Shown in pieces: positions 2,339-63,223 of a stretch of DNA of 64,000 nucleotides. The DNA lies in contig JARGXX010000033.1 in assembly GCA_030374765.1 (NCBI GenBank), forward strand, positions 186,001 through 250,000. Reading direction: 5' to 3'. This DNA is from Agarophyton chilense (lineage: Eukaryota > Rhodophyta > Florideophyceae > Gracilariales > Gracilariaceae). The position numbers and the translations under genes were made by a program. Under the pieces are notes generated by a model. It made no database searches. It was not told the DNA's origin and saw nothing but the letters and a program-made list of their open reading frames with translations. The first letter of the stretch is position 1; each line of letters begins with the position of its first letter.

Positions 2339-4674
2339 GTGCCGGGTACCATTGAGGTTGAAGAAGTCGGCGATTCCGAGGGGATTGATACCCCTGAAGT
2401 TATGCCTTTAAGGTCGGATTGGTCCCGCTCCACGATACCTCATAGGTCTGGAACCGCTCGCGCCCGTACGATGGCAACTGTTGCATCTGAAAGGTCGATG
2501 TCGGTACTACCGGAATGGTTGGATACGTTTCCTGTCTCCTCGGAACGGACCAAGGAGGCGTCACTTCAGAAAGATGAAAACCCGCTGGTGTTCCCCGCGG
2601 CGGTGGAGGTCGAGTCATCACCTCGTTCGTCAGGTCAAGCTACGGCCTTCCCAACCATGTCAGGTAGCGGTCCATCACGTGGCCGTGGACGCAGTGGTAT
2701 TACCAAGAGGGTGACTCGCTCGGCTTCTCGAACGCCTACCAACATTTGTTTTCGCAGCGTGCATGTCCCTGCGAACAACTTCTCCCCTGGGACTACGGCT
2801 GACCCATACCAACGCAGTGGTGGACTTCCTCCGACGACACAAACCAATTGGGCTCACAATCCCTCGTCTGGTGCGGCGAACCGGACGACGAATCAGTATG
2901 GACCTTTTGGTATTGCCTTCGACCAGGTGACTCACAGTGACCTGTTGAAGCACGATTGGCCTGTGGAGGTGGGGAATTCGTCATTGCCGGCAGCTCTCAC
3001 TAGACTACAATTGAATACCTACTTGGGTTTGTTCCGTTGGGACTGCGAGCGTCTCCGCTCCGTCCCATTGCTCTTGAAGAAAAGGGACCAAGAGTCTCAA
3101 CCTCATCAGGGTCGAAGGGAATGTTACCAGAGTCGGCAACGTCATACACCCTTGAGGTATTTCATCCCGCCGATGAATCCGAGCGACTTGCCGTATGTGC
3201 GCATCGAACAGGAGCTGGATTATTACCGTCAATTGGTGGTGCGAGTGTGCCAGTACCCGTCTATTCCGAATACTTACCTTCCGGTTTCACCTGACTTGGT
3301 TTCTCTGAATCGGCCTTTCACCACTATCAACTGGGCTGACCGTAACAGGTGCGGCGAGGATGCAGCGACGGAGTGTCGCGTTCGCACTTGCAACTCTTAC
3401 ACTCGCGTTATGCATATGTTTCATAACGTCGAGTACTTCTCACAACCTACGAAGGGTAGACGCGATTGGTACGTGCTTCGACCAGATTGGTGGGAGTCCT
3501 ATGAGGTTCCGTTATCGCTGAAAGTGCCCACTCCGCCAGTTTTGGCGTGCTTCGGGAGTCAGATTTCCCGGAACCTAGAGCGGTATTACCTCATTTGGTC
3601 GATTGCCCTCTCGGAGTGGACCGTATTGGTTGCCATCCTGGCTCTGGAGGTCGCCCGTTACGGTATCGATTGAGATTGTCGCAATCCCCACTCTGACATA
3701 TACCAGGATGGTGTTCAACCTGTAGGTCGTATCTTTTTCATACCTCCGAGGGTTTTCCAGGATGTTTCTCGATTTGGTTACAAGAAAATCGTGGAGGGGA
3801 CCGATTATACCGTGAAGGATTTGGACTCGTATCTCGAGCAGAGCAAGAATTACCATTGGGATTCCCATCAAGGTTGGGAGGCTTTCGATCCAGCAACTTG
3901 GGAGATTGTGCCTCATCACGCCCAATATTATCCCGGGGAGGCTCCTGTTTATGGAGCTCCCGCGAGCCCCGAACCTTATCAAGGTACTTTGGAGACACCG
4001 GTTGGTCATTATGCTGGTCCCTTCCTGTCCGAGCCGTTACATGAAGGTTGCAAGTCGCCTACCCCTACGGGTGTGACTCCTACTCAACCGAGCTCCTCGC
4101 GGGTTGGTGGTCCGGTTCGATCTCTGTTGGCGGGTACTGCTCGTTCTCCGCCTCAACCTATGATGGATTCTCCGGCCGTGTTCGGTTTGTTGGCTCGAAT
4201 TCGCCAGGCCTGCGTCACCAACTTTCAGAGGGCTGGACCTACCTCCGTGGTTGCTGCATTAACGATTCTTGAAGATTTTCTGCCGCCTCATGCGCAATAC
4301 ATGAAGGCGCTGAACCAACTTGGTGAGTTCCGGAATCAGTTCCAGTTGGACATGTACCAACTGGCCACCCGTCAGGTTTCCAATCTGGCGAGCGTCTCTG
4401 CAGCTGCGCCATTTGATCCTTTGATGGATTCCCTTGTAGGTGCTAACTTGAACCTTTCGGTTTTTTAACCCACTCCAGCGGTTTTTCTCGTTCAACCTCT
4501 GCTGGTTTCGACTCCTCTCCCCAGTGGCGGGGATACAACTCCTTCGCTACCTCCTAAGCCGATGGCTCCTAGCATTTCTGCTAGTTTTCCTTCCTGGGTA
4601 GTCAATAACACGGGCCCTCCTGATCCCACTGCTCCTCAACCGACAGGTCCTTCTGTTCCCGGATTCGGGGGCTA
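2339..4674 (+). pseudogene. Element A: reverse-oriented extra coding region (aORF)
   Basis: Long plus-strand coding frames lie between the end of pol and the 3' LTR, opposite in direction to gag-pol. Recognisable landmarks shared with B and E are NVEYFSQP, VPTPPVLACFGSQIS, a Trp-rich helical segment RYYLIWSIALSEW, VGRIFFIPP (about 3723-3749), a VKDLDSYL/YHWDS block, and a Pro/Gly-rich tail ending near PSVPGFGG. The N-terminal third is Ser/Arg/Pro-rich. I recognise no known domain. Extra reverse-oriented genes are known in some plant Ty3/Gypsy elements such as Grande, so the arrangement has precedent, but I do not recognise this protein. It is a broken fossil here. Confidence 0.7.
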
Positions 4675-5128
4675 GACTTTCTGTCGCTTCACCTTTGAGG
4701 TTCTTGTGGCGGCTGCCTGCCACTTGACTTCCTTAGTGTCTCCTTCTTCAAATAAATTGTTATCTCTTCTTGTCTCTTCTACTGTTACATTCGGTTGTTC
4801 TTTCGTGTCCTTCCTTGTAGGTAATCAGACACGCATATGCGTCCACCTTCTGCGGAAAACGACGTCTTCTTTCCGCCTTCCTTAGGCCTGAGTACCATAA
4901 AGATCTAATGTTAGCCGTCTGCAGGCATCGGCTCCTTGCGACGGCGCCAATACCTGATACAGAAGTGTGGTGGCATTGCAGCTGGGGGTTCGAGGGTGTC
5001 CCCTTCTGGCCCCCAGCCGTACCCCTTACGGTGTACTTCAGACCATTGTAGGTTCGCTTGTGGCCTACCAGACGGTCAACGGGAAGTTCCTCTGAGGTTT
5101 GGTCCTGATCTTTCGGGGAAGCGCTACC

Positions 5129-8100
5129 TCAAGGGTTCATATGTTCCGAGTTGGGAGCTTCGGGTGTGGGAGCCGGGTCGGGAGCTCCCGCTGTTACCGT
5201 TTGAGGTTCAATTTCCGTTCCTGTTAGAGGGTTGTAATCCGGATCATCACGTTGAAGGTCATCGTTCACCTCAATTGGGGTGGGGTCTTCCGAGGGTCGA
5301 GTGCGCAGAGCTACAGCTCTGGGATCTCGGCCTGAAGTGCCTGCCTCAATGCGATGTTGAACCGTTTCAGGTGCTACCGTATTACAGTCAATTGATATCG
5401 TACTCGGTGTTCCGTCCCGGTCAACCAGAACGGTGTGGTCGGATGCGTTCAATACCTTATAAGGTCGCAATGAGTTGGGTAGGAGCTTCGAATTGATATC
5501 TCTATCAATAGCTTCATCGTCCGCTTCATCACCCGGTCGTGGTCTTTTACCTGAAGGTGGGTTGTCTATTTAGACATATTGTCCCGAAGATACAGAGATC
5601 ACTTTGGTTACCCTACGGTCGTAGTCGGCCTTGTACTGCTTCTGGGTTGCAGTGAGGCGGCTTTCTGCATGTTTGAGAGCCCTCCTCAACCTCACAAGGG
5701 TATTTCGCTTGACCTGGGCATGGGTCAGTGCGCCAGCTGCAGTGCTGGTGGTATGATCTACCTGCACTACAATACCTGGGGGGTGTCGCGAAAGAACCAA
5801 ATCAAAGGGAGTGGTCTGCGTTGACCGGTGTACCTGAAGGTTATAGGAGTAGGTGAGCGGTTGCACCAGCTCATCCCACCCAGTTTGGTGCTCTTCCGTA
5901 TAGTGTCATAGCCTTGATACCAATGTGTGGTTAAAGCGCTCGACCTGTCCGTTCGTCTGCGGGTGGTAGGCAGTCGTGAAATAGTTCTTGATACCCAAGA
6001 GGTTACAGACTGCTTCGAAGAACTTCGATGCCAGGTTTAAACCATTATTGGTGAGTAGGTACAGTGGTGCACCATACGGGTAGATCCAATTGTTGAGGAA
6101 CGCGATGGCTAGCGTTGTTGACTTCGTATCCTTTAAAGGTATCGCTCTCGTGAGCTTCGAGAACCTGGCGGTGATGACTAAAATGTGCTGATACCTCTTC
6201 TTGGTCTCAAGAACTGGTCCTAGAAGGTCTATCGCAACAAACTCCAGCTGACTCGCTGCTGGAAACAGCTTGAGGTACTTTCGATGCTTTCGAATACCAC
6301 CGCGGGTACGAACACAGGATTCGCATTGACCTACAAAGGTATAGACATCATGGGCCATATGAGGCCAGTAGAGCTGTGGCCTCAAGGTGTAGTACATCCT
6401 GGGGGCACTGGGGTGTCCCGATAGTCGCGGGTAGTGCGCAAGATACAAGACTCTCGGGCGCAGCGCCTTCGGAACCACCTTTTGAAGGCTACTATCTAAG
6501 GTCGACCTTCTCACGATGTACCCATTGTGGTCCACATCAAATGGTGATCCTTTGAAACCAATTTGTTCAGCCAGGGTTCTGCAGTACGCATCCCGGGCCT
6601 GTTCTCGTAGAAACTCCTCTCGGGTTATGGGCATGACGTTCGTTTCCTCTAAGGTCAGTATCTGCGTTGCCATGTCGGTGTTCCGCAAAGCACCTTCTCC
6701 AGGTAAGTCCCAACATCCTTCTAGGTGTTCGCCGGTACCATTTTGGTTTGATGACACCAGAAAGCAAGGGATATCATCGTCCACAGGTTCTGTCTCTAAC
6801 CCTGAGGTGTTTAAGCGTGACATAGCATCAGCTATGTTGCGCTTGATACCTCGACGGTACTGTACGTCATATTCAAACTCCGACAGTGTCAACCTCCAAC
6901 GGGCAAGTCTACCAGACGCATCTGCGAGTCCGAGGATCCACGTTAAGGCGTCGTGGTCCGTGCGCAAGGTAAATCGCTCACCATAAAGGTATGGACGGAG
7001 CATCAACATGCTTCACACTACTGCTAGACATTCCTTCTCGGCTACCGTGTAGTTCTGCTCCGCCTCATTCATAGTGCGGCTCCAGTACCCTATCGGTAAT
7101 TTGTCTCCGTTGTGCTGCTCCTGCATGAGACAACAACCAATTTGGGCATGGGATGCATCCGTATCCAGCGTGTACGGTACACCTGTTTTCAATAACGCTA
7201 AGATTGGCGGCGACAACAGTGCTCCTTTAAATTGCTCAAATGTATCCATTTCGTCGTTCGATAGATACTCAAACCGTTCAGGTTCACCTTTCTGGAGCTT
7301 CTTGTTGAGGGGAGCCGCTATTTTCACGAATCCTTTCACGAAGCGACGATAAACGTTGCATAAACCTATAAAGGATCGTACGTCTGTCTGGGATCGTGGC
7401 ACCTTGACCTCCCGTACGGCTCTGATGTTGCTTGGCGCAACCTCTAGGGTACCAGGGCCTATGATATGTCCCAGGTATTCACCCGTTCTGGTAAAGAAGA
7501 GGCATTTGCGTAGCTTCAGCGTCACTCCCGCCTCAGCTAGGATGGTTAGTACGGTGCGTACGTGTGCAAATTGCTCTTCTACCGATCTGGAATAGATGAT
7601 TACATCATCGATGTATACCAAGGCGGTTGTCCATTTAACCTTCCAAAGGATGATGTCCAGCGCCCTTTGAAAGGTGGCTGGAGCATTGCGTAACCCGAAC
7701 GGCATCCGCGTGAAGCGAAACAAATCTGCATGGCACGTGAAGGTCGTTTTGTCTCGATCTTCCTCACCTACGGGTACCTTCCAATAACCACAATTGGTAT
7801 CCAACGTGGTAAATATCTGCGCATCTCCCAAGGTGTCGATGCACTCATCCATTCTAGGTATCGGGTACGAATCCCTGATGGTCACGCTATTAAGCCTCCT
7901 GTAGTCCACCCAAAACCTCATACGGTTATCCAACTTCTTCTGAACCAGAACCACGGGAATAGCCCAATCTGAGTTGGCTGGTTCAATTACACTTTCTTGG
8001 AGCATTCGCTCCACTTCTTTGAGTTCTACTTCTCTCGCCTTTGGACATGCACGGTATTGTTGCTGATAAATCGGCTTCGAGTCAGGGAGGAGCTCGATGC

Positions 8101-9155
8101 GATTCTGTATGGCCTTAATATGGCCCAGATGGCCTGACCACATGGTTTCGAACTCCTCCAGAAGGTCGAGAATACGGCCTCGCAGTTCGCCGTTTTCTTC
8201 ACCGATCTGGACTGTATCTTGCCATTGCTTCTCAGGGTCAGGTTACTCTTCTTTGTCTATCGATGCCTTATGGGTTAGCGTTGATTCCAAGTTGGTGTTT
8301 ATCGATACCATTGTGGTTGTGAACGCATTTGCGCACCCCCCTTCCTTGTCGAAGGCGACCTCGCCGAGATCAGTGTGAGCTACGGTGAAGACACCTTGTG
8401 GTACCGGTAGTGCAATGCCACCATTGGTATTTTTTCGGCAACTTCACGTCGTGACTGCCGACAATCCCGTTGGCCATCAAGGTGACATGTCGATGTGTTA
8501 ACCTCGGACGGTTTTGTAGTATGACCAGCCCGGGGGTCGCACACGACACCGGTACAAATACTTGGTGCATTGGCCGGATAACAACCTGTTTGGTAATGCG
8601 CACTTTGTTGGAGACCGTTTCGGTGGATATCGTCTTCTTTGGTTTGACGAACCATCCCCGTTTGGTTTCCGTATTACCTAAAATGGCAATTCGTCCCCCA
8701 TGACGTAGGACGACGGTACGGGAACCAGGAAGGATTGCTTTGACATGTCTGTCAACGAAGTTCGTACCTAGTAGGCAGTCTGTTGGTAAACGGTCGACAA
8801 CAAAGAATTGCAGTCTTACCTTGAGGTGTCAGAGCTGCACCACAGTGGTGAGCATACCTCGAAGGTTTAATGGGCGCTCATTTGCATCCACCAGCGGGTT
8901 CTTGTCGGGAGGTCGGCTCAAGTTCCGAAGTACCGCCTCAGGTATGACGCGGGAGTTCAGCACGTTTGGGCCGGCCCCCATATCTAACACGCAGGTGACC
9001 GGAACCGCAAGGCGATCGGAGAAACACATTGAAGCAAGTACTTTATATTTGTTGTACTTCATATGACCAACCGGACCTGGTTGTGACGTGTTCTCTTCCA
9101 CCTTCAAGGTTCTGGGTATCGATTGGCCTTCCGATTGCAGGTTGGGTTCGGCCAT
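5129..9155 (-). pseudogene. Element A: pol region (PR-RT-RNase H-IN)
   Basis: Read on the minus strand, the region shows in order a retropepsin-like segment (VTCVLDMGAGPNVL, about 8.9-9.0 kb), reverse transcriptase with FTTLDTNCGYW and the YIDD box (about 7.0-8.1 kb), the RNase H start LDTDASHAQIGCCL, the integrase HHCC finger (GHPSAPRMYY...CESCVR) and an integrase core with AIDLLG and YHPQTNGQVERF (about 5.9-6.4 kb). The PR-RT-RH-IN order is that of Ty3/Gypsy. A C-terminal tail continues to about 5.13 kb. Broken fossil. Confidence 0.9.
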
Positions 9156-11402
9156 TACGCCAACCGTTCGGTGTTTTCCTCCTGTACGGGAGGGGTTGAG
9201 TCCAAGTTTGGTGTTGCCTCGATGGTATTGACCTGTACCGATGGACGGGGTTGCAACCTATTTGTTGCTTGCGTTGAAGACCCATAGAGGTGTTGGTGAT
9301 TCTGCATGCGAGCCTGAATCAACTGGTCTCTCATCCCTGGAGGTAAGTTAGCGCAATTGTTTGCCAAATGGTCTGTCGCGAGACAGAACCAGCAAACGAG
9401 GCCTCCAGTTTGGGGGTCTCGCGTTACCATAGAGGGGGGCTTCGAAACCTGGTTGGTAGGAGCAGTGGCGTAGGATGTGGATGGCGAGTTAAGGGAGCTC
9501 GCTCCCTGCATCCTCTGCGAGCTCATCGCACTTGGCGGCGATTGTACCGAGTTTGGTGTACGCGTTGACGACCAATTTCCTACCGTCGAAGGTTTCGAGA
9601 ACCGCCCCTGGGTCGCTCCCAAGTGGATAGCGGTCCCTGTAGGTACTTCGAGGTGCGAACTACCCTCTGAGGTTGTGGTATCTTCAATTTCCAAGACTGA
9701 CCATTTCGGTTTATCCTTCGAGGTGGGAGGCACGGCTGGGCTCTTTCCCAGCCGAAAGGTATATCCAAGGCCCAGGGAGTATCGAGACAGCCCATTGTAG
9801 TCTACCTTTCGGTTAGTGGCCAGGTAGTTGCGTACCTGGGACCGGATCGCTTTGTCGACATTGTCGGCAAATAGCGACTTTAACCTAGAGTTAGTGAACA
9901 CATTACCACAGCGGGTTGCGAGATTCCATAGCGCCAGCGAGAACTCCGATTTGGTTTGTCCAGACCTTTGATGGTAAGCGAGGACTTCCGAGTAAGCCTC
10001 TTGGATAACCTCATCGGTGGCATATGTTTCCAAACGGAAATTGACCACTTCTGGGTATGACTCCAACATCTCTGTGCCATCCTCATCCACCGCTAAGGTA
10101 TTGCCGCGGAGCCTACCCTGCAGCAAGTAATATGCTTGTCTTTTAAGGTAAAACTGAAATAGCCACATAGCAGCGCCCTCGGAAAACCCATTTTGGTCAC
10201 ACGCAAGCTTGAACTTCTGTACAAACTCAATCACCGCATTAGGATCCGTACCTGTGAAGGTTGTGTCACCCATTTGGAAGGTGAGCTTCTTGTGGTGCTT
10301 AGTAATCTTCTGAGCAACGTCTTGGGTGTATTCAGACGACTTGTTGCTCAACCGATAGTTCCTGTAATCAAACGCTTTGGTGAACATATCGTTCAACGGT
10401 TGGTGCACCTTCAGGTCCATTTCGGTGTCCGACTCAGAGTCGGGTCACTCATTGTATCGTTTTTTTCCTATTCGGATTTTTCTTCTTCTTACCTTTACGG
10501 TCATCATCCGACGATGAACTCGTATCGGAACTGGAGTCCGACGAGTCGGGGTCTGAATAATCCTCTCGATTCTTTCCCCTCTTCGTCCTCCGCTTCTTCC
10601 CTTTTCGGTTTCTTCGTCGCTCATCCAACGAGTCAGACGAATCGTTCTTGGGACCACCTCCATGGGTATCCTTTTGAACGAAACCAGTAATTGGTGGCAG
10701 ATAAATGTCTTGAGGATCTACCTTCCCCAGGACATCTTGACTCTGCCTTGGACTTTGTAGGTACTCACTATCAGTAGGTAAGTGTTTGGAATGGGTGGAA
10801 TCACCCATTTGGAACCCTGGTGGTATGCGCTTTGCGATGTTCACCTGTGTAGGTCGGGATTCTGCGAATCCCTCGGAAACCCAAAGGTCTTGCAGCGCGC
10901 GGTAAACATGCTCTCTAGCATCTGTAAATAGATACTGTTTCACCATTTCAGGTATCCTGTCCGATAGCTCTTGAGCTGCTCGGTCAACCACAATACGGGT
11001 AAATGCATCGACATCCATTGAGGGCGGAACAATCCGGGTATCCGATTTCTTTTTTAAGGTTAATGCATCCTCGACCGCGAGGGTGACGAGCGCTTTTGCT
11101 CGCTCTTCGAGCTGAGACCATAGCCTTTCCGCTACAACCTTATTTGGTAATTCCCTTTGAGGTTCCGTTGCCATTGGCGGCGGACCATGTACCTTTACGA
11201 TTTTGTCCCGAGGGTGCCGTAGCAGCTCCTCAAGGTTCTCCAGAATCGGTTGAACCGATGAATTTCCTTTAAAACCTTTATGGCTTGGCGGGGCGCTTGC
11301 ACCACGCGTATTCCTTTTAGGTCGTTCTTTTTGTGGCCAATAGTGGTATCCTGTATTGCTTTGCGGGATTTCCTGAAACCAAATAGGTGTACGAGCGCCC
11401 AA
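9155..11402 (-). pseudogene. Element A: gag region
   Basis: The minus strand carries an acidic/basic Ser-rich N-terminal part, a capsid-like helical domain (contains LYLKRQAYYLLQGRL and the SGQTKSEFSLALWNLATRCG block) and a CCHC knuckle WFCLATDHLANNC near 9.33-9.38 kb. The same order is seen in the gag of B and C, with related blocks (TRQKPMETETVYSTRLNKAF in B). Broken fossil. Confidence 0.85.
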
Positions 11403-11474: not shown

Positions 11475-11477
11475 ATT

Positions 11478-11647
11478 TGTCGAGCAATCACCTCTGGGGT
11501 ATTCTACTGTCTTGTCTCGGGATCGTGGTGACGCTCAACCTTAGAAGGTAAACGTGATAAACAAAAATGGTAACAGGGCACCGTGAAAACCCGCAGGGGC
11601 AAACGGCGGGGCAACTAGCCTATACTGTGTAGGTGAACGATGGTAGG
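11478..11647 (-). repeat. 5' LTR of element A, inner part (split by element B)
   Basis: These 170 bp match 872-1041. The match breaks at GTAGG (11643-11647), where element B is inserted, and resumes at 23401. The GTAGG copy is the left target duplication of B. Confidence 0.92.
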
Positions 11648-12561
11648 TGTAGAGCAACGCCCAGTTAGGGGATACTTGAAGATGCAACTCATAGAATGAG
11701 GATTGAACCCTCCGAGGGTTATGATTATGATCCCCTCTATGGTGCGCTGAGGTGGCACTGTTTTCTGGTTATATTTCGCCTATAAGGGAAAATTCGGATG
11801 GCCCATGGTTGGATTGGCCCCGTGATACACGTGGCTTAATTTTGGCACCGAATTTCGGATATTTGTTAGAACGTTGGATTTTTGGGCCCTGGCAGTGGGA
11901 TCTCCACGTGTATGGCCCTGAGCAGGTGTGCACTACTGTAGAGTTTAGTTAGTGGGCCCTACTTAGGGAGGCGAGATCTGACAGTCCGAGCTCAGAGAAA
12001 ATGACAACCAGGGTTGGTCTTCGATACCTTTAGAGGTTCTTCGTCGCCATCGTTTCGGCCTTACAACCCGGAACGTGCTCCGGTTAGCAACGCCTGCGTA
12101 GGGACAGGACTCCACTTGGAGAGTGCCCACGTTTGAGTTCCGTGCAACCACCCCCTTGGGACCGCTCAGACGACCTGCGTGCACGATACCCCGTGGCGGT
12201 TCTGCTTACTTGTTGCGTGCTTTTTGTGTTTCCTTTCGAGGACAGGTTTTCGCCCCTGTATTGGGTTTCTTTTGGTGTTTCGCCCCTTTTCTGGTTCTCG
12301 GGTCCGGTGCCTGTTAGTGCCCGACCCTCGCCCCGTTTTTCCTCTTCGCCGGGTTTTCCCCCATTCTTTGGGATACCCATATCCATTCCCGATCCAACGG
12401 TTTCTACCCCTCACCTCCGTCGGTACTGCCGGAATCCCCCGTGGGAGTTACACCCCACACTACGGGTGGAACGGAGGGCTCTGTCTCTGAGTCTGCCTCC
12501 CCCAGGGAGCAAGGCTTCGAACACCTTGAGAGCACTTCCGGTCGCCGGATTTTGCTCCACA
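11648..12561 (+). repeat. 5' LTR of element B
   Basis: This 914 bp repeat is nearly identical to 22482-23395, with TG...CA ends. A 66-codon open frame starting at 11752 occurs in both LTRs (again at 22586); nothing supports it as a separate gene. Confidence 0.96.
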
Positions 12562-12788: not shown

Positions 12789-14711
12789 ATGACGCCGCCT
12801 ACCCGTGGTTCCAGGACTGGATCGAACCGTCAAGCGGATTCAGTGCCCCCGGCCCCGCCTAGGTCGAGGAGCTCAATTCCCGAAGATCGGAACGATTCCG
12901 GTATCGATCCGGACACTCGGAGAGCACCCTCAGTGGTTTCAGGTCCTCGAGAGGTCGTGGCTGTGGGCCCAGCTCCAGTGGTGGAGACCCCCTCAGCAGC
13001 AGCCCGAAGTCGGGCCGACCCTGAATTACAGCGCCTGGAGACTCGAATTGATATCGCCAACGCGGCTCATATCGAGCTCTTTCAGGAGGTTACTACCCTC
13101 CGCCTCAGGGTGGAGGACGCCCAGGTGCGGTGAGTCGCCGATGACCTTCGTACCCTGAGGAGGGATGTGAACTCCCTTTTGGAAAGCTTTGCTACCCCTA
13201 CGGTCTTTATCCAGGAGTACCGGAGCCTCGTGGAGGAACAACGCGTGCAAGCGGAACGCTTCCGAGGTCGGCTGGACACCCTCGAGGCCATTATCCATAT
13301 GGACGGAGACACAGAAGCCTCGAAAGATAAACCCGACGTTTCGGAAGACGAAGAACACCGCTCCGCTAAACGGGACCGCCGCAAGTCAAAGAAAAGCGTT
13401 CACCTCCAAGAGGATTTATCGGATTCCGATCCCAATCGCTCGTCATCGAGTTCGTCCTCCGAATCTTCGGATAGTGAAGATGGACGCCGGTCATCCCGGG
13501 CGACTCGGTCGAAGGCTACTTACACCTGTCAAGGGGCAATCCGTACCCGGAAAAAGGGTAGGAAACACCTTGGATTAAGGGAGCTGAAGCCGACGAATCC
13601 TCTCTATCGGAAGCTGCTATCGTACCGCTATTACCGGTTGGATAACCCTTCGGGAGATCGAACATCCCGCGGAACGGGTAAGGTCAAGGACTACATCAAA
13701 AGGATGAGCATCACCCTACAGAAGAGGGAGTTAACAGGAACAGACCCAATTCTGGTGCTCGATTTCCTTGCGAGGTTCGTCCAGGAGGCTGGCATCCTCG
13801 GTATGAGTGAAGCGCAAGCGTATCTTGCATTACCCTATTTCTTAAAGGGGATGGCTGAAGACCAGTTCAACTCCGTCCGTGGATCATCCCGAGCCTCGGA
13901 AGGGGGAGTCACGTGCTGGCCCGAAGCGGTGCAGTACCTCTTGAGGTCATACGCTACTGGAAATGCGATTCAGGAAGCAATCCTTGCATTAAGGGATACG
14001 CGGCAGAAGCCGATGGAAACCGAAACGGTGTATTCAACTCGCTTGAATAAAGCGTTTCACCGATGCGGGAATGGATTCCCCGCCTACGAGAGATGCTCCA
14101 TGTTTGTGGATGGTTTGGACCCCTCGATAAGGGCATTGGTTGCCCGACATCGGGAAGAGAAGCGCAAGCTGACCTACTTGGAATTGGTTCAGTACGCCCA
14201 GGCTGAGGGGGATACTCTCCGTGCCCGGCAGAACCGAAAGAGTCGGCCGACAAGTGCACTCCTCGCCGATGGAGGTAACTCGTCTTTGTCACTCGCAGGA
14301 GGCCCGGCCCCTGTGGGGGTCAATGATAACATTCACTTCATGGGAAGTAACCCCGAATCTATGGGTACGTCTGAGTTGCCGTCGACATCCGCTCCGACTA
14401 CGGATGAAGACCCTGCGCTCTATACCCACGGACGGAGGGTGCCAGCCGCATCGTTACCTTTTGCGAATACCGCTGCTCGGTTCTCTCGCCCCGGATGGAG
14501 GGATACAGCACCACGTCACGTGGATTCACGTCCACAACCGAACTCGGCAGAGCTGATTTGCTATTTTTGTTACCTCCGTGGTCACAAAGCACCAGACTGC
14601 ACATTTCCCCTGCGGGAGGGTTCACGAATAATCGCTCAGTACGAGGCTCTGACCCCTGAGGAGAAAGCTCGAGTCCCGAGTAGGTCCTATGAGGAACAAA
14701 GGATACTCTGA
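12789..14711 (+). pseudogene. Element B: gag region
   Basis: It starts at an ATG leading into a Ser/Arg/Pro-rich head. This is followed by a short coiled-coil-like stretch, an acidic Ser-rich linker (SSSSSSESSDSEDGRRSS) and a capsid-like domain with blocks shared with element C (LPYFLKGMAEDQFNSVRGSS, TETVYSTRLNKAFHRCGN). It ends with the CCHC knuckle CYFCYLRGHKAPDC near 14.56 kb. It packages element RNA in the family. Broken fossil. Confidence 0.88.
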
Positions 14712-14821
14712 GCTCACCTTGCTGACTGGGATACAGAACGTGTACCCGCGAACGGGGAACAACCGGTCCGCTTCGAGGAAGCTGCACCGAATTCGGTGGG
14801 GTCCGCTTCGAAAAACTAAAC

Positions 14822-17800
14822 TTGGGAGTCTCCCCTGCGGGAGGGGCGTCTTCTAAGCCGGACTTGAAGACGCCCGAGGCGCTCCAGCTTCGCTCCCCAG
14901 CTGTGACTATCCTTTCAAGGAGAACGGCTGACACCGACGTTAACTCGGGATACTTTAGTGTCCTCCGTCGCCCGTGGATACGGTCCCGTAATCTCCGTAT
15001 TCCGGATCGAGTTATGGTAATGGCCAAGCGGAATTATAAGGTATTCGCCGACTTCGGCCTGTCCAACCAGTTTATGGTTCGTCAAATATCTGTCCTGGAT
15101 ACAGGAGCCGCTCCTAACTTAATTCATGTTGAATTGTTACCCCCGCTGCTCCGGGTTCAAGTTCGTACCGGTCCACGTTTGGATATCGCCGATGCGAACA
15201 ACAACCCGCTACGGACACTGGGTACAATTTACCTCATGGTGAGGTTAGGCTCCTATCTCGTTCAACTGGAGTTAATTGTATGCAAGTCACTTGCAACACC
15301 AGTCATACTGGGTTGTGACTTTTGCGACCGCTTCGTGGAAGCCATCCGTCCTCGGAATAGAACTGTGGAACTCGAAAACGGGTCTACGATCCCAATCGTT
15401 CGTAAACCCTTACAGGGAGCAGCGCGAACACACGTTCCTCTCCCCGTCGCGCAGGAATCTATGAAGAGGGACCCGGTGTCTACACGGGTAAAGGTTGCGA
15501 AGTCAGTGGCTATCCCGCAAGAAACCCAGGTTTGGGTCACAGTTGTTACCAAGCAAATTTGTGTGCATGTGGTACAACCGAACCCGTCTCTGTATACGCG
15601 GCGTCAACTCGCCCTTGCGAATGGGTTTGTCTCCGTGGAACCGGATAAACCTTTCAAGGTTTTGGTAGCCAACTTTGGAAAGACAACGCAGCATTTGGTC
15701 AAAAACCAGATCCTGGGTTCTGTTCTTCCACACCCGCATGCGGTCGTACCTACAAAGATCTCTATCGCAGAGGTCCTTGGTGTGGCGGACCCTAAGGAGG
15801 GGGAGGACACTGCCGAAATCGCGGAAGACGGTGAGCATACGACTGCAGCTCCACACGCTGAACACTTTAAACCTCAGAAGGTTACGGCCCCTATCACAGG
15901 AGCAGACCAGACGGCTCTTGTTCAGGAATTAGAGAAATGGGATCTCAACCATGTACCCGCATCTCATCGGGAGAAGCTGAGGCACATGCTTCGTGAATTT
16001 ACCCCCATCTGGGATGGTTCTCTTGGAACTACTGGGATTACAGAACACCGCATCGACTTGTTACCGAACACTCGGCCTATTGCCCAACATCCTTACAGGG
16101 CTGGACCGAAAGCTCGGGAAGAGGAGAAATCTCAGGTGGAGAAGATGCTTAAAGCGGGCGTAATTGAACCTGCCCAGTCCGCTTGGGCCTCACCGGTGGT
16201 GTTAGTTCCGAAACCGGATGGATCGTGGCGTTTCTGCATCGATTACAGACGCCTGAACGAGGTAACCATTAAGGATGTGTACCCGATCCCTCGGATGGAC
16301 GAATACATCGACTCCCTTGGGAGCGCTACTGTTTTCTCTACCCTCGACGCCAATTCGGGCTACTGGCAAGTCCCTATTAGGGAGGAAGATCGAGAAAAAA
16401 CGGCTTTCGTGTGTCACCAAGGACTTTTCCGATTCCGGAGGATGCCTTTTGGGTTGACAAATGCCCCCGCAACGTTTCAACGGGCGATAGACATTCTGTT
16501 GGCTCCCTTCAAGTGGAGGACGTGTCTAGTGTATTTAGACGACATTATTGTCTTCTCCAACAACCTGGATGATCACCTCGAACACGTCAGGGACGTAATG
16601 AAGATACTCCGCGACGCGGGAATCACCTTGAAACTCAAGAAGTGCGAGTTTTTCACCGATTCGGTTAAATATCTGGGTCATATCATCCGTCCCGGACAGC
16701 TTTCAATCAATGAAGTACGAGTGAAATCCTTGAAGGAAGCAAAACACCCGAAAACTCAAACGGAGTTGCGATCTTTCTTAGGTCTGTGTAACGTGTATCG
16801 CCGATTCGTCCCGAACTTTGCGGATATTGCCACCCCCCTCAACAGGCTCCTGACGAAGGGACAACCAGTTGAACTGGAATCTTTTGGCGACGCGGAAGCG
16901 TTTGCCTTCACGGCACTGGTGAATGCCGTAACATCACCGCCAATCTTGGCTCTACCCAATCCTGGGCTCCCTTACGAAGTGGACACCGATGCTAGTGCAA
17001 ACCAAGTAGGGTGTGCACTGTTCCAATCCTCTGAGGATGGTGAACGTCACCCTATTGGGTACTGGTCGCGTTCCCTGAATGTCCATGAAAGGAACTACTC
17101 GGTCTCCGAGAAAGAAAGTTTAGCCGTTGTGTGGGCCTTAGCTACACTTCGCCCCTATCTGATGGGTACTCGTTTCAAAGTCCATACCGACCACGCATGC
17201 TTGCGTTGGCTCCTGGAGATCTCCGAACCCTCGGGCCGCCTTATGCGCTGGCGTCTCCGACTGTCGGAATTCGACTTTGAGGTCCTGTACAAGAAAGGGA
17301 AGCTGAACTCTCAGGCTGATGCACTATCCCGCTTGGGAACAACAGCGGAAACGGAACCCTACGAGGACGATGACATCCCATGCTTTATGGTATCGGACCT
17401 CGAGGGAGGAGCTCAACCGCTGACGGATGATGTTTGTGACGATATACTCGTCAACGAGAGTCTGGATTCGCCGACCGGCTCTTTTATACCTATCTCTCCA
17501 GAGGAGATGATACGCGAGCACCAGCTCGACCCATTCTGTACACGGATTCGGGCTCGCCTCAACGGAGGATTTCAGTTACCTTTCGAGGACGACGATCAGG
17601 GTTACCTAATCAGGACCGTTGGACCTCGCCCGAGGATAGTGGTGCCGCACACCCTATAACAGAGGGTATTACACCTCACTCACTATTTGAAGGTTGGCGC
17701 CCACCCCGGGGGAAGAAAACTGTACCTCACGTTGAGAAGGGACTTTTACTGGCCGGCAATGGCATTCGATTGTTACGCCGTCAGACGGGCCTGCGCCAGT

Positions 17801-22439: not shown

Positions 22440-22468
22440 CCGCGGCTCGGAATGTTCTTCCTCGTCTT

Positions 22469-45835: not shown

Positions 45836-45840
45836 ACTTC

Positions 45841-48387: not shown

Positions 48388-49213
48388 ATTTGATAAATTA
48401 TGAAAGAATGAAGTAAAAATGTTGTGTTTACAGGTTGTGGACGATCGATCGTAATCTTTGAGGTTGACGCCAGAAAAGAAGAGAGTGTTGAAAACGTCTA
48501 GGCACAAACATTTAAGGAAATTGACAAAGCTTACAAAAATAATCGATGTTGTAATTTTGGCCTCATATGAGGCCAGTGGTCGTATAGACACAAGTGTCTA
48601 CACACCCCGAGGATTGACCTCACCTGAAGATAGCTTGGTCCCATATGAGGCCAAAACTTCTCTTATAAAGTAACTGAAATTCATTCAAGATATGATTTTT
48701 CAAATTTAGAGCAGAAAGAAAGAAAACAAAAATAAAAGCCATACAACTTTATCGTTGAAGAAAAGCCTCGGGAACCTAGTCAAACAGAGCTTTATTACTC
48801 TTCTTTAAAACGATACTCTTTTGGTGTAGCAAACTTAAGTAGTCGCAAAAAAAAACAACCAAATATTCTTGGTCTCAAACTATCCAAACAAACATGTCGA
48901 AAGGAAATATCTCTTTCAGTCATCTGGTAATGCATACTTCATATCTTGAGGCCATCAAAGGAAGAATGTTTGGAAATATGTTCCAGTTATGCAGAGCTTG
49001 TAGATTGCATTTATTGCTCAATTACAAAGAAATAAAAAATGTTCTCATGTGATGCCAATTGACCTCATATGAAGCCATCGGTTGTACAAACACTAGACAT
49101 GAGCGAAGCAGTAAAGGGTTGCGGGCAAAATCTAAACCGCAATTTTAATACTTGGAGAGCAAGAGTTATTTCATAAACACCACATTTTTGAAACAGAATT
49201 CATATATATCTCT
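48388..49213. other. 5' flank of the piggyBac gene with repeated palindromic motif
   Basis: No gene seen. It holds a perfect palindrome TGGCCTCATATGAGGCCA (48558-48575), a diverged copy at about 48635-48653 and another at about 49049-49066. Segment AAGTGTCTACACACCCCGAGG (about 48592-48612) matches the left-flank copy near 36.16 kb. The rest is AT-rich. Confidence 0.6.
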
Positions 49214-49476
49214 TTGAGTTTCAACCACTTTCGAACCTTAGAGCATCAATTAAGGAAAAAAATTGAATGGAATAAAAAACATATTACCTTGACCGATTCA
49301 AAAGGGTCAAAACCTCTTTTGGCGCGCTTTTCGAATTCCAAATTGCAATGTTGGAGAATACGCAACGCAAACGAACAATTCATTTTACATATTGTCCATC
49401 AGCAAATCAAATATCATCCTAAAACATGTTCCGTTCTGAACGAATTGCATCACATCAAAAGAAAAATGAAGGACAA
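49214..49476 (+). pseudogene. unrecognised partial ORF cut by solo LTR D2
   Basis: About 87 codons of protein-like, Lys/His/Asn-rich sequence (KKIEWNKKHITLTDSKGSKP; ILHIVHQQIKYHP) run into the left end of LTR D2. No family recognised. Its relation to the frame on the far side of the LTR is unclear. Confidence 0.35.
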
Positions 49477-51281
49477 TGTCCTTCAAGGGGGTTTCTTCGC
49501 AGGACTTAGAGAGTTCGCTCGCTTGAGGATTAGCTTGGTCTATGACAAGCTATACCGCTATTGCATGCCGACGGCCGGTTAGGACCGGAAGTGCACACTG
49601 GTGGAACACGTGGACTGCCCGGATGCCGACGCTCGAGTGCGAGGCGTGCCACACGTGGCCCGGATTCTACCTAATGGTTAGTATTATTTAGTAATTTTTA
49701 GTATTTATTTAGCTACGCTATCGCTATTTAATGTCTATTTTTCGGGCGCACGCCCACTCTCAGGGGCCGCGCGCCACACTACTTAGGAGGTTGAGCACTG
49801 CTCCCCAGTAAACACCCTCTTGGGAGATACCAAGGAGGGAGTCTTGGCTCTGGACTTTTCGCCTTCGGCGCGTCTTCACCGCATACTGCATGAGCGCCCG
49901 TTGCACGTTTGTTAATCCACCCCTCTGTCGACCAGAATGCTACCACCACCGTGGGTTCATATTTAATCGCCGACAGTTGTCGTAGTCTCGCCCCTATATA
50001 GGGTTTCGCCCCCGTTTTCCTCTTGTTCTTTTTTTTGGCTCTCGTGAGTGGCCGCCTCACTCACCCCGCTCGTCCACCTCATACGAGTGTTTCCTCGCTC
50101 CTTCTCCGACAATCGCCGTGGTACCGCTCCGCCTAGTGAAGTGCAACCCTCGTGAGGGCCGTTTTCCAGGACTTGGTTGTTTTTCCGCCTCGGGCGATAC
50201 TTGTGAGATCTATGAGTAATACCGCTACAAGCAAGCTGGCGTAGCCAGGTGTATACGCGTTGTACGCGAAGTGCACCGGCGGCCGTGCGCCGTGGCCCCG
50301 ATTCGGGTGTGAATTACCCACGTGTACCACGGGTGGCCCAGGACAGGTTGGCACAGCATAGCTGGATATTTCTCTATTTATTTAGCTTTATTACACTAGG
50401 TTACGGAGCTCTTTACAGTATTCTACACTATATAGTGCCAGGGCGATCTCGCCCTGACACTCAGTAAACCTCCCCAACCAGGGTTCTTGGCTCTAAGTCT
50501 TTTTCCGCTTTCGCGAGTCTTCCACACTCTACGGAGGTGAAGCCGCGTTACTAACGGTAGACTTATCCACCCTGCGTCAACAGGAGACTCACCGCTGTTA
50601 CCGTGTATATCTTTCATACCACTGCCGTGTTCTCGCCCCAGTATTGGGTTTGCTACATATTTCTTTTGGCTCTCTTGGCCGATGCCCCCGATCGCCCCCA
50701 CTGGGTGGTCCCCCCTTTATCGCTTACCCACTCTCATGGTAGCTCCCCCTTTTGCTTTGTGGTTGGTTATTCGTGCCGCTCGCGCGTGTGCCGCGCGCCG
50801 GCTTACCGGGTTTACCGCCACTCCTGTGGGTGCATTACTCGATCTCGAGACTTGCCCACTCCCGTGGAATACAGCTCATACCTGGTCTGCTCCCTTCTAG
50901 CATCCCGCACTCTCCCCGCTTGGCGTGCCGGTGAACCTCGGCCTTACACCCCGCCTTAGTCGTGTTCACTCCGGAGAGGCTCCGTCGCCGTGCTACCCTC
51001 CTTGGAGGAAGACTCGGACATCTTCGTGTGTTTCCGCCGCCCTTGGCGTTGCACTACACCTAGTACTGGTCACACCCCGTACTGTGCCGTGCTCACCTAA
51101 ACACTGTAGGTATAACCCGCCGGATTGGCCTCGGTCTTACACCCGACTCCGTCGTGCCTTTCCAGAGTGGCTCTGTTTCTGTGCCCCGCTGGGACGCGTC
51201 TCCTCCGCCTGAGGCGTGTCTCTCAAGAGAAAAAGATCCCGAACATCTTCGTGGTGTCTCCGCCCCAAGCCTTGTCCTACA
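49477..51281 (+). repeat. solo LTR D2 (family D) with a nested C-type solo LTR
   Basis: TGTCCTTCAAGG...TGTCCTACA. Removing the nested LTR and one target copy (927 bp) leaves 878 bp, equal to D1. It lies in the opposite orientation to D1, so the two are separate insertions, not the ends of one element. The outer flanks show no clear target duplication. Confidence 0.85.
50137..51058 (+). repeat. solo LTR of a C-related family, nested in D2
   Basis: 922 bp, TGAAGTGCAACC...GCACTACA, flanked by CCTAG on both sides (50132-50136, 51059-51063). From about 50.27 kb on it matches the LTR of element C, with an extra segment near 50.73-50.86 kb and a different 5' part. It is thus a longer subfamily. Confidence 0.92.
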
Positions 51282-51717
51282 AGAAACAACTTTTTGATTC
51301 TGTGGACGCCTGGAAGACATTTATGCTCTACCAAACAGTCGCACAACAGTTTTATGTGCCAAGATCGACTTTGCACTACTTCCTTTTCAATAAGAAGAGA
51401 ACAACGCCGTAAAGTGTGGCTGAGTGTCGCTGATTGCCGCTGAGGAAAAAGTATTCTTCCACTTTCTCCATTGCTTTGCACGCAAAGTCATATCTCTCAA
51501 TCGGCAGCATTTGCTGGAGGAGATCATAATTATTTTTCTGGCAATGCCCTCTGCAGGAAATGATATATTGGGTGCATCCCAGAAATCCCACAATCCTAGA
51601 GTTCCAGACCGATACCGAATAGAAACCGAACACGTTGGCCTGGCTTCCTTCCAGATTTCAGAACCTAGACTGGGTAAGAAGCATCCGAACCAGAGTTCCA
51701 AATGCTTGTTGTGGTAA
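51282..51717 (+). pseudogene. possible pogo-type transposase N-terminus (HTH psq and CENP-B-like)
   Basis: Plus-strand frames read DAWKTFMLYQTVAQQFYVPR then STLHYFL, like a psq helix-turn-helix (VP.STL core). In a neighbouring frame AAEEKVFFHFLHCFARKVIS then LNRQHLLEEI follows, like the CENP-B HTH, with LGKKHP at the end. The parts are in different frames with stops, so it is broken. It starts at the right end of LTR D2. The call rests on motif order only. Confidence 0.35.
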
Positions 51718-51839: not shown

Positions 51840-53410
51840 TTCAACGTTTCTAATCCAAGCAAGTGTTTGTGTGGCGTTGATTATTTTCATTCTATTAATT
51901 GTCCGAAAAAAAAACGACAAGCATTACCCCGAAGAAGATGAACGACCAACAGTAAGTTCCATTGCTCTGGAGTTCTGAGACCCCAAATCCATACAACGCC
52001 GTGGCGAAAGTGCCTGCTTCGTAGCACGAATGAAGATTTTGTGGTAGCGACTAGTTTTCCAAGATCTTTCTTCTTCGAGAATTTGCTTCCGTAGTTTAAA
52101 ACAACCCGACACAAAATCAAAAAAAGGGTCCCCTTTTCGAAGCTTTTCCACCTTAAGGGGCCGAAAACCATTGCTACACGGTGAAAATTTGTTTGGCCTC
52201 GCATTGTGGTCCATGAAAAGAGGAGATGTGTAATATTCATTGCGCCCGATATTCGGAAACCCACGCACATCCCTTTCGAAATGGCTTTAATTTGCACTGG
52301 ACGGGCTGTGGGCTATGAACGATTCTTGCGCTCTTTTCCGGAAACACAGATGTCATGGGTATGTGCTTCGAGGTGTTTTTGGGGTGAGTGGTGGTGCAAG
52401 TATGTTCTGCACGTACTTTAACGAACCCGACATTGAGAATTCTTTCTTTAACGGTATGACGCAAGACGTGGAGGCTACAAACCTGCTTGTCTGGAACTTC
52501 AAGGGGGAGATAATTCACGCTTGTCTCAATTACCCTGGAAGCTGGCATGACAGCAAGCTCGCATACGTTTCAGGACTGTACTGGCCTTCATTTATTGAAG
52601 ACTGCCACATGCCTGCTGGTTAGGCCGTCCTAGGAGATAGTGCCTTCGTTAATAATAACCGCATTACAAACGGAAAACTGGTTCGTGCCCGGAAGACCAA
52701 CGAAATGATCTAAATGCCCGTGTCTTCGGGTTGTGCCACCATAGAGCTTGCATTGCAACACCTGTACCCCGGCGAGCGAAAAAGTGCTTAATGGGGTGTC
52801 CCAGGTTTGAAGGCTCCCTTTAGTAGATTGAGCAAGAAACTACCTGCCAGCGATGATAAAGGCGGTCACATGCTCAGCGTCGCCTGTCATATAGTGAATT
52901 ATCGAACACGAACCTGGACGTTGTCAAGGAGCAACGATAACGGTTGAGTCCTGTAAGCCGCCGGGGCCTGAGGTATCTCACAGACGCCACGTGGACTGGC
53001 CGACCTCGGCTGGGCCCATTTAGATAATTATTTTATATTTATTAGTGTAATAGATTTGCATTACAGTTCCAGGGAGATCCCAGCGCCTCGCTATTACTAT
53101 TTACTCGGCTCGAGTGACGCTTCTCCCTTAGAGTAAGGTAGGCACCGTTAGGATACTAAATTACCCCCTTTGGTATTTTTTCTCCACGAACTATTCTTCA
53201 AGCCATCGTTTCCGTAGCTTCGATTTGTAGGACTACGCAGTAAACGCCAGCCCATTGTACCAAGTACTTTGGAAGTGCCGCCGTCAAGGATACGAACCTT
53301 AGGACCCGCTCTACCACGCTACCCCAGGTTGAGACCAGTACGCTGACCCACTAGTCACTGCGTTACAGACGTAACCAAATTGCTATGGTGTGCGGGGTGC
53401 CACACACGAT
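51840..53410 (+). pseudogene. PIF/Harbinger-type (DDE_Tnp_4) transposase, interrupted by an E-type solo LTR
   Basis: One plus-strand frame carries family blocks in order: RLVFQDLSSSRICFRSLKQP, LFGLALWSMKRGDV, RPIFGNPRTSLSKWL, VFGVSGGASMFCTYFNEPDI, NLLVWNFKGEIIHACLNYPG then SWHDSKLA (second catalytic region), VLGDSAFV (LGDSAF motif), LYPGERKSA and WGVPGLKAPFSRL, then NYRTRTW. After the solo LTR at 52922-53367 it ends with NQIAMV. At least four in-frame stops lie in the first half, and one more follows the DSAF block. It is a different family member from the copy at 23.8-24.6 kb. Start not determined. Confidence 0.82.
52922..53367 (+). repeat. solo LTR of family E, inserted in a Harbinger transposase
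   Basis: 446 bp, TGTCAAGGAGC...GCGTTACA, with GACGT on both sides (52917-52921, 53368-53372). It matches the reverse complement of the 3' LTR of element E (60272-60720) throughout. The transposase frame is interrupted exactly here. Confidence 0.92.
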
Positions 53411-60271: not shown

Positions 60272-60720
60272 TGTAACGCAATGAATGGTTGGTCAGCTTA
60301 CTGGTCTCAACCTGGGGTAGCGTGGTAGAGCAGGTCCTAAGGTTTTTTATTCTTGACGGCGGCACTCCCAGAGTACTTGGTGCAATGGGCTGGTGTTTAC
60401 TGCGTAGTCTTACAAATCGAAGCTACGGAAACGATGGCTTGAAGAACAGTTCGTGGAACAAAAATACCAAATGGGGTAATTTAGTATCCTAACGGTGCCT
60501 ACCTTACTCTAAGGGGAAAGCGTTACTCGAGGCAAGTTAATAGCAATAGCGAGGCGCTGGGATCTATCTGGCACTGTAATGCTAATCTATTACACTAATA
60601 AAAAAATAACAGTTATCTAACTGAATCTAGCTAAGGTAGGCCAGTCCACGTGGCGTCTGTAAGATACCCCAGGCCGCGGCGGCTCACGAGACTATCAACC
60701 TTTATCGTTGCTCTTTCACA
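60272..60720 (-). repeat. 3' LTR of element E
   Basis: 449 bp, TGTAACGCAATG...GCTCTTTCACA on the plus strand. It matches the solo LTR at 52922-53367 in reverse complement. Confidence 0.9.
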
Positions 60721-60734: not shown

Positions 60735-61256
60735 GGATTCGACCATCACGGCGAAGACCAGATTGCCTCATGATTGACCCAAGGGACGTGAGCGATTAGT
60801 TGCCCCCATGACCACGGGGCGCGACGGGACGTCGCGTCGTCATCACCTGCCGGGGTAGGAGGAAGTCCAAGCTGACCATTGGCGCCAGGGTGGCAATTAA
60901 TTTGCCTAAGGACTGAAACTCAAGCGCGCCGTGAATAATGGCCATAGGTTCATCGCCGGCGTATTCCTTTTTGCGAGTTGGCGAGATGGTCCCTTGGTTT
61001 ATTCTCCCCTGACGGTCATTGGGGCCTTCCTTAGTCTCCGCTTTTCCTTTGGCGTCCCTACGCGTTTCGTCCACCGTGGTTTACGTCTGTTAGTCCGCTC
61101 AGGTCAATTCCATCATCTCATCCTCCCATCGTGGTACTCTTTAATTGGCCGCACGCGATGCCAAACTAGCCTTATAAGCCCGTCGGATACTCCATTCTCC
61201 CTCCGGACTTTGTCGCTTCCGTCTGTTTTCCTATCCATTTCCCGGCAAAACGGCCT

Positions 61257-63223
61257 GTGACCAGCCGCACCATGGCTTCGAAGAACCAAGCGGGGAGCTC
61301 CTTGGGATACCAAGTGGCTCATGAGCGCCCCGGGGATCGCCATGACCATACCATCAGAAGAAATCCGCGGGCCGTGCGTCTTTACAGTCTGCGGTCCTCT
61401 GTGGAAAAATACCAGAGGTTTTTTCATGTTTATCTCGACGCCCGGCGGTTCGCTTTGATCCCCGATTTCCAGAGGTTCAGTAAGAAAGCGCGCAGCGTCT
61501 CGTGGCATAACCGTTGGTTGCATCGTCCTATGTTTCTGCGTTCGGCGACGCGCTGTCGCACGCTCATCCCCGTACGTGTATTGTGAGAAGGAAGCCGAGT
61601 ACCAGTTAAGGAAGAACAAACTCGTTTTGGACCTATGCGAGGACTTCCGCTCGCCTCATGTGAGATTTCCTCCGGCGGTTTACAACCTTTTTGCGCTCAT
61701 GTGCTTCCGACCGGCGTATGAAAGCCGGTTTTGGATGTCTAATAGGGTCTATTGGAACGAGATGCATCAGCCCGATTATCGTTTGCGTCAATCTCTGGAG
61801 TTCTTTTTCTGTTGGCACCACGTGGAGTTTCACGACATGAGTGCAGACAAACGTCCTCCGTTATATCTCTCGCTTCCCCACGTGGATAAGAACAAACGGG
61901 CCCTGTACTGCCGTATCTCGCCACTCCTTTTGGTTCCCACGCCATCCGTAGTGGCATATCATTCGTCCCAACTCATGGGCGATGACAATGACCGAAGGTC
62001 TTGGTTGTCTTGGCAAGTACTCTTCGTTGGGTTTGGTGTGATGTTCCTTATGGCCTTCCTTGAAACTGCAAAGTACTGAGTCTGTTATAATGTCCGTTCG
62101 GATGATTGGAGGGTATGGCAAGACGGGAACATGCCCGGTCCTCGAGGTTTTCTAATCTCGCTGCCGGACATCATGATCCGTTTCATAAGGAACCTGGGCA
62201 TCCATAATCTCGTCCGTTGGACCCAGTTCGCCGTCGAGGAGGCCGACGCCTTTTTGGATCATGTCCTACAGGTGGACTAGAGCAAGACTCCCGGGTTCCT
62301 TTGGTATGACCACGATACCAACTCTTTCACGCCAATTCCGCTACATTCACAGGGTCTGGATGACACTCGTGCCTATCCCGCCAAGTCTTTGAGGAATCAA
62401 CCATCGGACATTCCGAAGCGTCATGTGCCCAACTATAACCCGAAGGCCATTTTTTTCGATCCCCTGTGCTTCGAGCCTGATTGGGAAGCCAAGTCGTTGG
62501 TTCCTGTTGGTATGTCCGATGGAAAAACCTTCGGTGGAGATCATTTTGTCAAACCCGTGGAGGGCGTCAATTCTCCAGTCGAGTCCGCTGTTTTGTTGCC
62601 GACCGCTTCTCCTCCTCCAGCTCCTCCGGGCACTGCTGCTCAGGATTAACTCTCAAATAAGCCGCCCTTCGCCTACATGGACATCCCTCCTGGCGAAATA
62701 CTGTCGAAGCCGAAAGTCCTGTAGGTGATGCGATGGCTCAGACGCCCACTGTGGGCGTCGACGTCACTCTGTCCTCTCCGTTGCCGCATTTTCCCGCTTC
62801 GGTCAAAGCTGCAGCCGCAGATTTCTTTCATGTATGCCGTACCGTTGGTATTACGACCTTGATGGACATTGCGACATTTCTGAAAGAAGCTTGTTCCTGG
62901 GGGCGTCGCTCGGCGCGCTACGCCGCGGTTGTCCAACAGGGTAAGGATCTGAAGACCTTTATGGCAAAGTTCCTGGAGCAAAATGCACAAATGATGTCCC
63001 AGATGGTTACTGCCGACTTTAATGCCCGGTATGGTCTACATTTGAGCGACTAGGAGGCTTCTGAGGGTGACAATATTTCCTCATGTGAATCTCCCCCGAA
63101 GAGGTGTGGTTGGATCGCTGGGGCCGGTCCTACTGGTACAGTAGGCTCAAAGGGTGACCCTAGTTCTGGTTTCGCCCCTGCAGGGTCAAATGAGGAATAC
63201 GCAGTTACTCCTGCGCCGCCCTA
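61257..63223 (+). pseudogene. Element E: reverse-oriented extra coding region (aORF)
   Basis: Plus-strand frames lie between the 3' LTR and pol, opposite to the element. Landmarks shared with A and B in the same order are KEAEYQLRKNKLVLDLCEDF, HHVEFHDM, VPTPSVVAYHSSQLM (about 61.94-61.98 kb) and a hydrophobic segment WQVLFVGFGVMFLMAFLETA. A late helical block (ASVKAAAADFFHVCRTVGIT...MSQMVTADFNARYGL, about 62.79-63.05 kb) resembles the late block of A (FNQ-type RIRQACVTNFQRAG...QLDMYQLATRQV). A Pro/Gly-rich tail contains PSSGFAP. No known domain. Broken fossil. Confidence 0.7.

Follow-up and report, generated by a model that had tools for sequence, protein, structure and literature searches.

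Why should a retrotransposon carry, between its pol gene and its 3' long terminal repeat (LTR), a gene that is read in the direction opposite to gag-pol? The question is raised by a stretch of 64,000 nucleotides from the red alga Agarophyton chilense (GenBank assembly GCA_030374765.1, contig JARGXX010000033.1, positions 186,001 to 250,000), hereafter the window. It contains three Ty3/Gypsy elements, here called A, B and E, each of which has a long coding region in the interval from pol to the 3' LTR, antisense to gag-pol. Opposite-strand coding at this place in all three elements had been claimed in an earlier note made from the letters of the window, and it is borne out by reading frames, Pfam domains and LTR pairs. 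By profile comparison the three products are one homologous protein family, and the substitution patterns among copies indicate that purifying selection acted on this protein during the multiplication of the elements.

The antisense gene of A is a single frame on the forward strand (2129-4672) with in-frame stops at 2288-2290, 3671-3673 and 4466-4468; comparison with other copies places its expected ATG at about 2192. The gene of B is likewise a single frame, on the reverse strand (20544-22466, read from 22466 to 20544), with one in-frame stop and an ATG that is probably the one at 22400-22398, some 80 bp off the LTR edge. The gene of E (about 61132-63226, forward strand), whose ends were taken from comparison with the copy L053, is interrupted by three stops (62077, 62278 and 63051) and by a frameshift between 62646 and 62661, and its last piece (63054-63221) matches the E profile with an E-value of only 1.8. 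In all three elements of the window an open reading frame (ORF) thus lies antisense to gag-pol in the pol-3' LTR interval, the arrangement called aORF-3R. Element E does code antisense to its pol, as the earlier note had it, but this pol is not inside the window: the gag-pol of E is found on the reverse strand in the flank directly to the right (L069).

All three elements have the Ty3/Gypsy order, gag followed by reverse transcriptase (RT) and RNase H ahead of integrase, between LTRs. Pfam domains were obtained for A and B; the RT and integrase of E were assigned from frames in L069 and by BLAST, and the gag of A from position alone. Element A lies on the reverse strand, to which Pfam assigns its RT and integrase. 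It comprises a 3' LTR (871-1478, self-BLAST), a stop-interrupted pol frame with RT, RNase H and integrase (5129-8242, ORF list and Pfam), a gag-like frame without a Pfam gag match (9155-10444) and a 5' LTR split by the insertion of B into a first part (11477-11642, self-BLAST) and a remainder (23401-23837). Element B is nested within this LTR and flanked by a 5-bp target duplication, GTAGG (11643-11647 and 23396-23400, self-BLAST). Pfam assigns all its domains, from gag through RT, RNase H and integrase to the chromodomain, to the forward strand. Between a 914-bp 5' LTR of the form TG...CA (11648-12561) and the 3' LTR (22482-23395; both from self-BLAST), the latter the putative site of an antisense promoter, stand gag (13134-14711; Retrotrans_gag at 22.9 bits, slightly under the cut-off of 24.1), pol with RT, RNase H and integrase (14726-18556; Pfam, with a weak protease match at an E-value of 0.11), a chromodomain ending pol (19947-20093; PF00385, E-value 3.8e-7) and, adjoining the 3' LTR, a polypurine tract read by eye (22469-22481). 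This C-terminal chromodomain, shown for B only, identifies B as a chromovirus. The 3' LTR of E (60272-60720, reverse strand) pairs with L069 7033-7476 at 76% identity, while the aligned LTR pieces of A are 88% and 93% alike (871-1478 against 11477-11642 plus 23401-23837) and the LTRs of B 98.6% alike; judged by these identities, the insertions of A and E are old and that of B is young. A further stretch at 52922-53367, 88% like the LTR of E and in the opposite orientation, is probably a solo LTR.

The relationship of the three products was assessed by profile-profile comparison, in which the pairs B-A, B-E and A-E gave E-values of 4e-10, 2e-9 and 7e-13. The corresponding scores of 86.8, 81.7 and 107.2 stand well above the maxima of 40 column shuffles per pair (28.5, 25.7 and 27.7; 120 shuffles in all) and above those of reversed profiles (16.2, 15.6 and 21.0), so that a lack of profile similarity, which the earlier note had named as a refutation, was not found. 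The B profile was built from a natural B copy (L008) and eight public protein relatives and included neither A nor E. When it was run against 1826 ORFs of at least 25 residues from six frames of the window and L069, the best match after B itself was the A frame (E-value 3e-6), followed by the E frame (0.03); the A profile recovered the E frame (5e-4 and 1e-3) and the E profile the A frame (0.006). With shallow profiles B and E were not significantly similar (E-value 0.083), and significance was reached after P0005-P0012 and the full E alignment had been added. Protein identity between the families is 18-35%. The alignments reproduce the order of the landmarks that had been read from the window: HVEL, HNVEY or HQVEF; (V)PTPxVxAY as against PPCIYYIGSRLM; an EW helix rich in Trp; RIxxIPP, seen in A and B; and VxDLxxxL...W, which in E reads VEETEALL...W. 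The common Pro/Gly tail (GPSSGF/SSGFAP) proposed along with them was not supported and is rejected as evidence because the significant profile alignments do not reach it and its sequence is of low complexity.

The gene is present in A, B and E, as had been described, but it is not confined to three relics: matches across the genome place it in the families A, B, E and a further one, F, and it recurs in high-copy families of which some copies are still open. The home genome (79.8 Mb, 135 contigs) yields at least 118 gene matches for B, at least 123 for A and at least 150 for E, fragments included; these counts, like those of RT below, are lower bounds. Among the B matches listed, 49 stand in frames that span 600 or more codons and are free of stops over the matched part. 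A genome-wide test of gene and RT strands covered A and B. Among the matches listed for B (118 gene, 83 RT) there are 34 gene/RT pairs within 15 kb, 32 of them on opposite strands and 31 with a spacing of 3.7-4.0 kb; among those listed for A (123 gene, 102 RT), all 31 pairs are on opposite strands and 29 have a spacing of 2.5-4.2 kb. Pairs across the two families, among the same matches, number six and are scattered, and the rest of the listed gene matches have no listed RT close by. Some matches of the A family agree fully or almost fully in score and frame across several contigs (C40, C42, C44, C45, C48, C51, C13, C109 and C110) and are recent segmental copies or assembly duplicates.

Further loci were reached with the relatives P0008, P0012 and P0011 as queries (66, 62 and 74 scored places, respectively), and none of the 66 places found with P0008 overlaps an A or B gene in the lists compared. 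At C111, family F has a 611-codon open frame on the forward strand and, beginning about 2.6 kb past the end of this frame, an RT frame on the reverse strand, with integrase-like frames (read by eye) between them. Judged from strands and from gene and RT frames alone, the layout of F is that of A, B and E, with the gene antisense to pol. B and F are the closest pair in RT (62% identity) and also in the gene (34%), and the gene of A is closest to that of E (23% over 533 residues).

Past selection on the protein, which the earlier note had proposed, is supported by substitution ratios and stop counts as well as by the profiles. The ratio of nonsynonymous to synonymous substitution (dN/dS, pooled Nei-Gojobori) in the gene frame is 0.63 for A (95% codon bootstrap 0.56-0.69; 30 copies), 0.59 for B (0.44-0.80; 18 copies) and 0.43 for E (0.40-0.48; 30 copies). 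With few stops besides, the neutral ratio that would have spoken against selection was thus not observed. Four of the five other frames, those without wobble sites in common with the gene, give 0.86-1.20. The fifth, rev 1 on the opposite strand, gives 0.69 (A), 0.56 (B) and 0.53 (E); its low values arise because it has third positions in common with the gene frame, and its 21-36 stops per copy mark it as non-coding. For A and for E, the 30 copies that matched the window copy best were taken whether or not they had stops. The RT copies and 10 of the 18 B copies were picked for stop-free frames, a choice that distorts the stop counts and has little effect on dN/dS; the eight B copies not so picked have a median pairwise dN/dS of 0.60. 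The gene frame has 2.7 stops per copy in A, 0.4 in B and 5.1 in E against 9-36 in the five others, and 1.0 against 9-21 in the eight unpicked B copies; since the gene frame has far fewer, a chance open frame is excluded. The lowest ratios fall in the core that is aligned across families (A 301-500, 0.48 and 0.39; B 201-400, 0.36 and 0.47; E 101-300, 0.33 and 0.23). Variants common to at least two copies fall at third positions in 256 of 655 cases in A and 448 of 1087 in E, compared with 344 of 1059 and 180 of 658 among singletons, an excess to be expected if selection preceded insertion and decay followed it.

The family had not been recognised in the earlier note, and database searches agree with this: neither Pfam nor PHROG (searched with the B group only) nor PDB gave more than chance-level matches. 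The relatives of A and E come from Agarophyton chilense, where they are listed as unnamed products, and are 57-82% identical; those of B (26-51%) include Gracilariopsis chorda BWQ96_10156 and seven others (P0005-P0012). The gene thus has counterparts in further Gracilariales. Pfam scans of the window pieces of A, B and E, nine members of alignment A2, L034, L016, L053, L066 and P0001-P0004 found no family above cut-off. The matches below it were judged to be chance, among them YqgB (E-value 0.13, A), DUF6757 (0.23, E) and, in the B group, DUF3905 (0.13) and Rubredoxin (0.04). Sequence and profile searches of PDB gave nothing beyond weak matches (E-values 0.18-0.81), likewise taken as chance, and a scan of IMG/VR gave 21 pattern matches, none of them confirmed. 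Nothing on this gene was found in the accessible parts of the literature on antisense ORFs and red algal LTR elements (including PMC5970526). Within these searches the protein family and its red algal setting appear to be new.

The layout, on the other hand, is already known from the antisense aORF-3R of Grande, Retand and Boty, and the comparison with Grande that the earlier note had drawn is right in kind. According to the accessible part of PMC7264820, aORF-3R are antisense additional ORFs in the pol-3' LTR interval of plant Ty3/Gypsy elements, such as Grande gene23, RIRE2 and PvRetro13. As described there, these resemble the present gene in place, orientation and the many conserved copies per family; here, in contrast, the host is a red alga and there is no Pfam match, a distinction drawn from descriptions rather than sequences. 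The available text of PMC7264820 and PMC11963269 presents GENE23 of Grande as nuclear and under its own promoter. In Retand, antisense ORFs code for TRP28 (Transposase_28, PF04195), for which a regulatory role is suggested and which is reported from flowering plants only (both PMC11963269, as far as accessible); DNA binding is predicted for it (accessible parts of PMC7264820, PMC11963269). B is a chromovirus with a C-terminal chromodomain; Retand does not belong to the chromoviruses. Boty of Botrytis (PMC7264820, in its accessible part) is similar in that it, too, is an LTR element from outside the plants with an ORF in antisense, and differs in its fungal host, the likeness being one of description and not of sequence. 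More generally, the same partly accessible sources (PMC7264820, PMC11963269) describe LTR retrotransposons of flowering plants and of fungi that carry antisense accessory genes, give the function of these genes as not known and name human T-cell leukaemia virus (HTLV) alongside such ORFs. In the red algal members tested, Pfam scans found no match to PF04195; a genome search with PF04195 was also without a match, though its positive control was likewise silent. The antisense gene of the HTLV group is HBZ, which codes for a small bZIP regulatory protein. The red algal open frames, of about 600-850 codons, are of other make-up, and the likeness, with no sequence relationship claimed, is that the 3' LTR drives a gene in antisense, putatively so in the red alga.

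Taken as a whole, the best explanation, and one held with moderate confidence, is a conserved antisense gene that is old, driven from the LTR and codes for a soluble accessory protein of the nucleus. The gene would already have been present in the common ancestor of families A, B, E and F and would have been inherited along with pol. Since some 80 bp separate the likely ATG of B from the edge of the LTR, a promoter should be located in or directly beside the 3' LTR, and each element would then have two transcription units converging past pol. The protein has Pro-rich tails around a Trp-rich core, which may correspond to unstructured tails and a globular domain. It is predicted to act in trans, most likely in the nucleus, and may aid continued expression or integration of the element, a role also proposed for Grande GENE23 and the TRP28 proteins of Retand. 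By analogy with Grande GENE23 and Retand TRP28, an accessory regulator acting in the nucleus would be its most likely role; 'nuclear' rests on this analogy because a stretch like a nuclear localization signal (NLS) occurs in only one of four home-genome copies (E).

Among the alternatives, the one that survives best, unlikely though it is, is capture: the elements would have taken up a host gene as cargo, and its host paralogues would lie at other places in the genome. Transduced host genes are known among extra retrotransposon ORFs (PMC7264820, in its accessible part), and a single-copy host paralogue could hide beneath the many element copies; but no relative was found in Pfam or PDB, four diverged families carry the gene opposite to pol, and its evolution broadly parallels that of RT. 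Clearly less probable is that the antisense RNA is the functional product, pairing with the 3' part of the mRNA to tune or silence it, and that the open frame is incidental. The convergent layout would suit such a role, and RNA roles are discussed for plant elements in the accessible part of PMC7264820. Against it stand the gene-frame dN/dS, lower in each family than that of four of the five other frames, the protein-level homology across families at the low identities given above, and the stops in the B gene frame, at most about one ninth of those in any other frame. An envelope-like or other membrane protein, for exit from the cell, is just as improbable. The gene sits where env would, and in the A copies and in P0003 there is one hydrophobic stretch, but its strand is opposite to that of env, and an envelope-like class was rejected for want of sense orientation, membrane segments being judged from simple hydropathy only. 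By this measure most members show no clear membrane segment, the most hydrophobic stretch is internal, never N-terminal, in 16 of 16 proteins, and where it aligns among the B relatives charged residues are conserved inside it. A shadow or chance frame kept open through composition or through overlap with a sense gene, a reading to which the low dN/dS of the wobble-sharing frame lends some colour, is refuted for practical purposes by the stop counts, which show that frame to be non-coding, and by homology scores exceeding 120 of 120 shuffles, and its probability is negligible.

Several observations weigh against the explanation by an old, LTR-driven nuclear accessory gene. Constraint on the gene frame is weaker than on the RT of B (dN/dS 0.32, 0.20-0.50; 7 copies), and the ratio of rev 1 in B (0.56) is no higher than that of the gene frame (0.59), yet rev 1 is rich in stops. 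RT identities of 56% for both A-B and A-E leave A unplaced, and element C of the window (37152-45836) gives only chance-level matches to the gene profiles (E-values 0.7 and 3). Third positions in B lend no support, with 6 of 20 multi-copy against 57 of 137 singleton sites in the eight copies; with 18 copies the counts are 26 of 58 against 101 of 275. The indel-frame test was uninformative, as multiples of three made up 5 of 15 multi-copy indels in E and 0 of 1 in A, which is chance-like. One segment reaches a hydropathy of 2.0-2.1 in two A copies and P0003 and could be a membrane segment, NLS-like stretches were seen in the E copy and, among 12 relatives, in P0001 alone, and a search of the antisense strand of the B 3' LTR for a TATA-like hexamer found none.

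The remainder of the window holds other mobile elements and further open frames. The LTRs of element C are 99.5% alike; it has gag-like and chromodomain frames, no RT or integrase was found in the three frames scanned, and it has the look of a non-autonomous element that moved recently. Pieces resembling its LTR, at 50287-50733 and 50852-51058, interrupt an element with nested inverted repeats at 46375-51286 (46375-46590/51070-51286, 90%; 46597-47272/49462-50136, 93%). A 382-aa open frame at 32600-33748 has Tc1/mariner transposase domains (DDE_3, HTH_Tnp_Tc3), and the fragments at 23789-24307 and 52291-52620, with sub-threshold DDE_Tnp_4 matches, are presumably PIF/Harbinger-like. A 350-aa open frame at 24845-25894 matches Uma2, a family best known from bacteria, weakly (PF05685, E-value 1e-5, under cut-off). 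A homocysteine S-methyltransferase frame on the forward strand at 28142-29200 lies in a stretch of 62% GC with a 339-aa open frame antisense to it, and an NADH:flavin oxidoreductase frame at 34473-35810 is probably a host gene.

For red algal gene sets the finding means a gain in annotation, as proteins of this family (P0001-P0004 and P0006) now stand there as 'unnamed' or 'hypothetical'. Nine aligned sequences of the B group have 38 invariant columns, including RTxxExxY, PxLxxEFRY, ERxxR, EVPRGC and PxxGxW, and together with the open-frame copies these make the function directly testable. A more far-reaching possibility, put forward tentatively and on balance doubtful, is that red algal Ty3/Gypsy elements are an ambisense lineage, whose ancestor would have gained a backward unit driven from the 3' LTR and coding for a trans-acting factor of a new fold (for example, for anti-silencing or integration targeting), on which most families may still depend and which may have spread through the Gracilariales and beyond. 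Because a red algal protein without detected relationship to TRP28 occupies the same place in the same orientation, the results suggest either several origins of the antisense layout or a greater age than has been assumed, and also that such elements gain a repeatable advantage from a backward gene.

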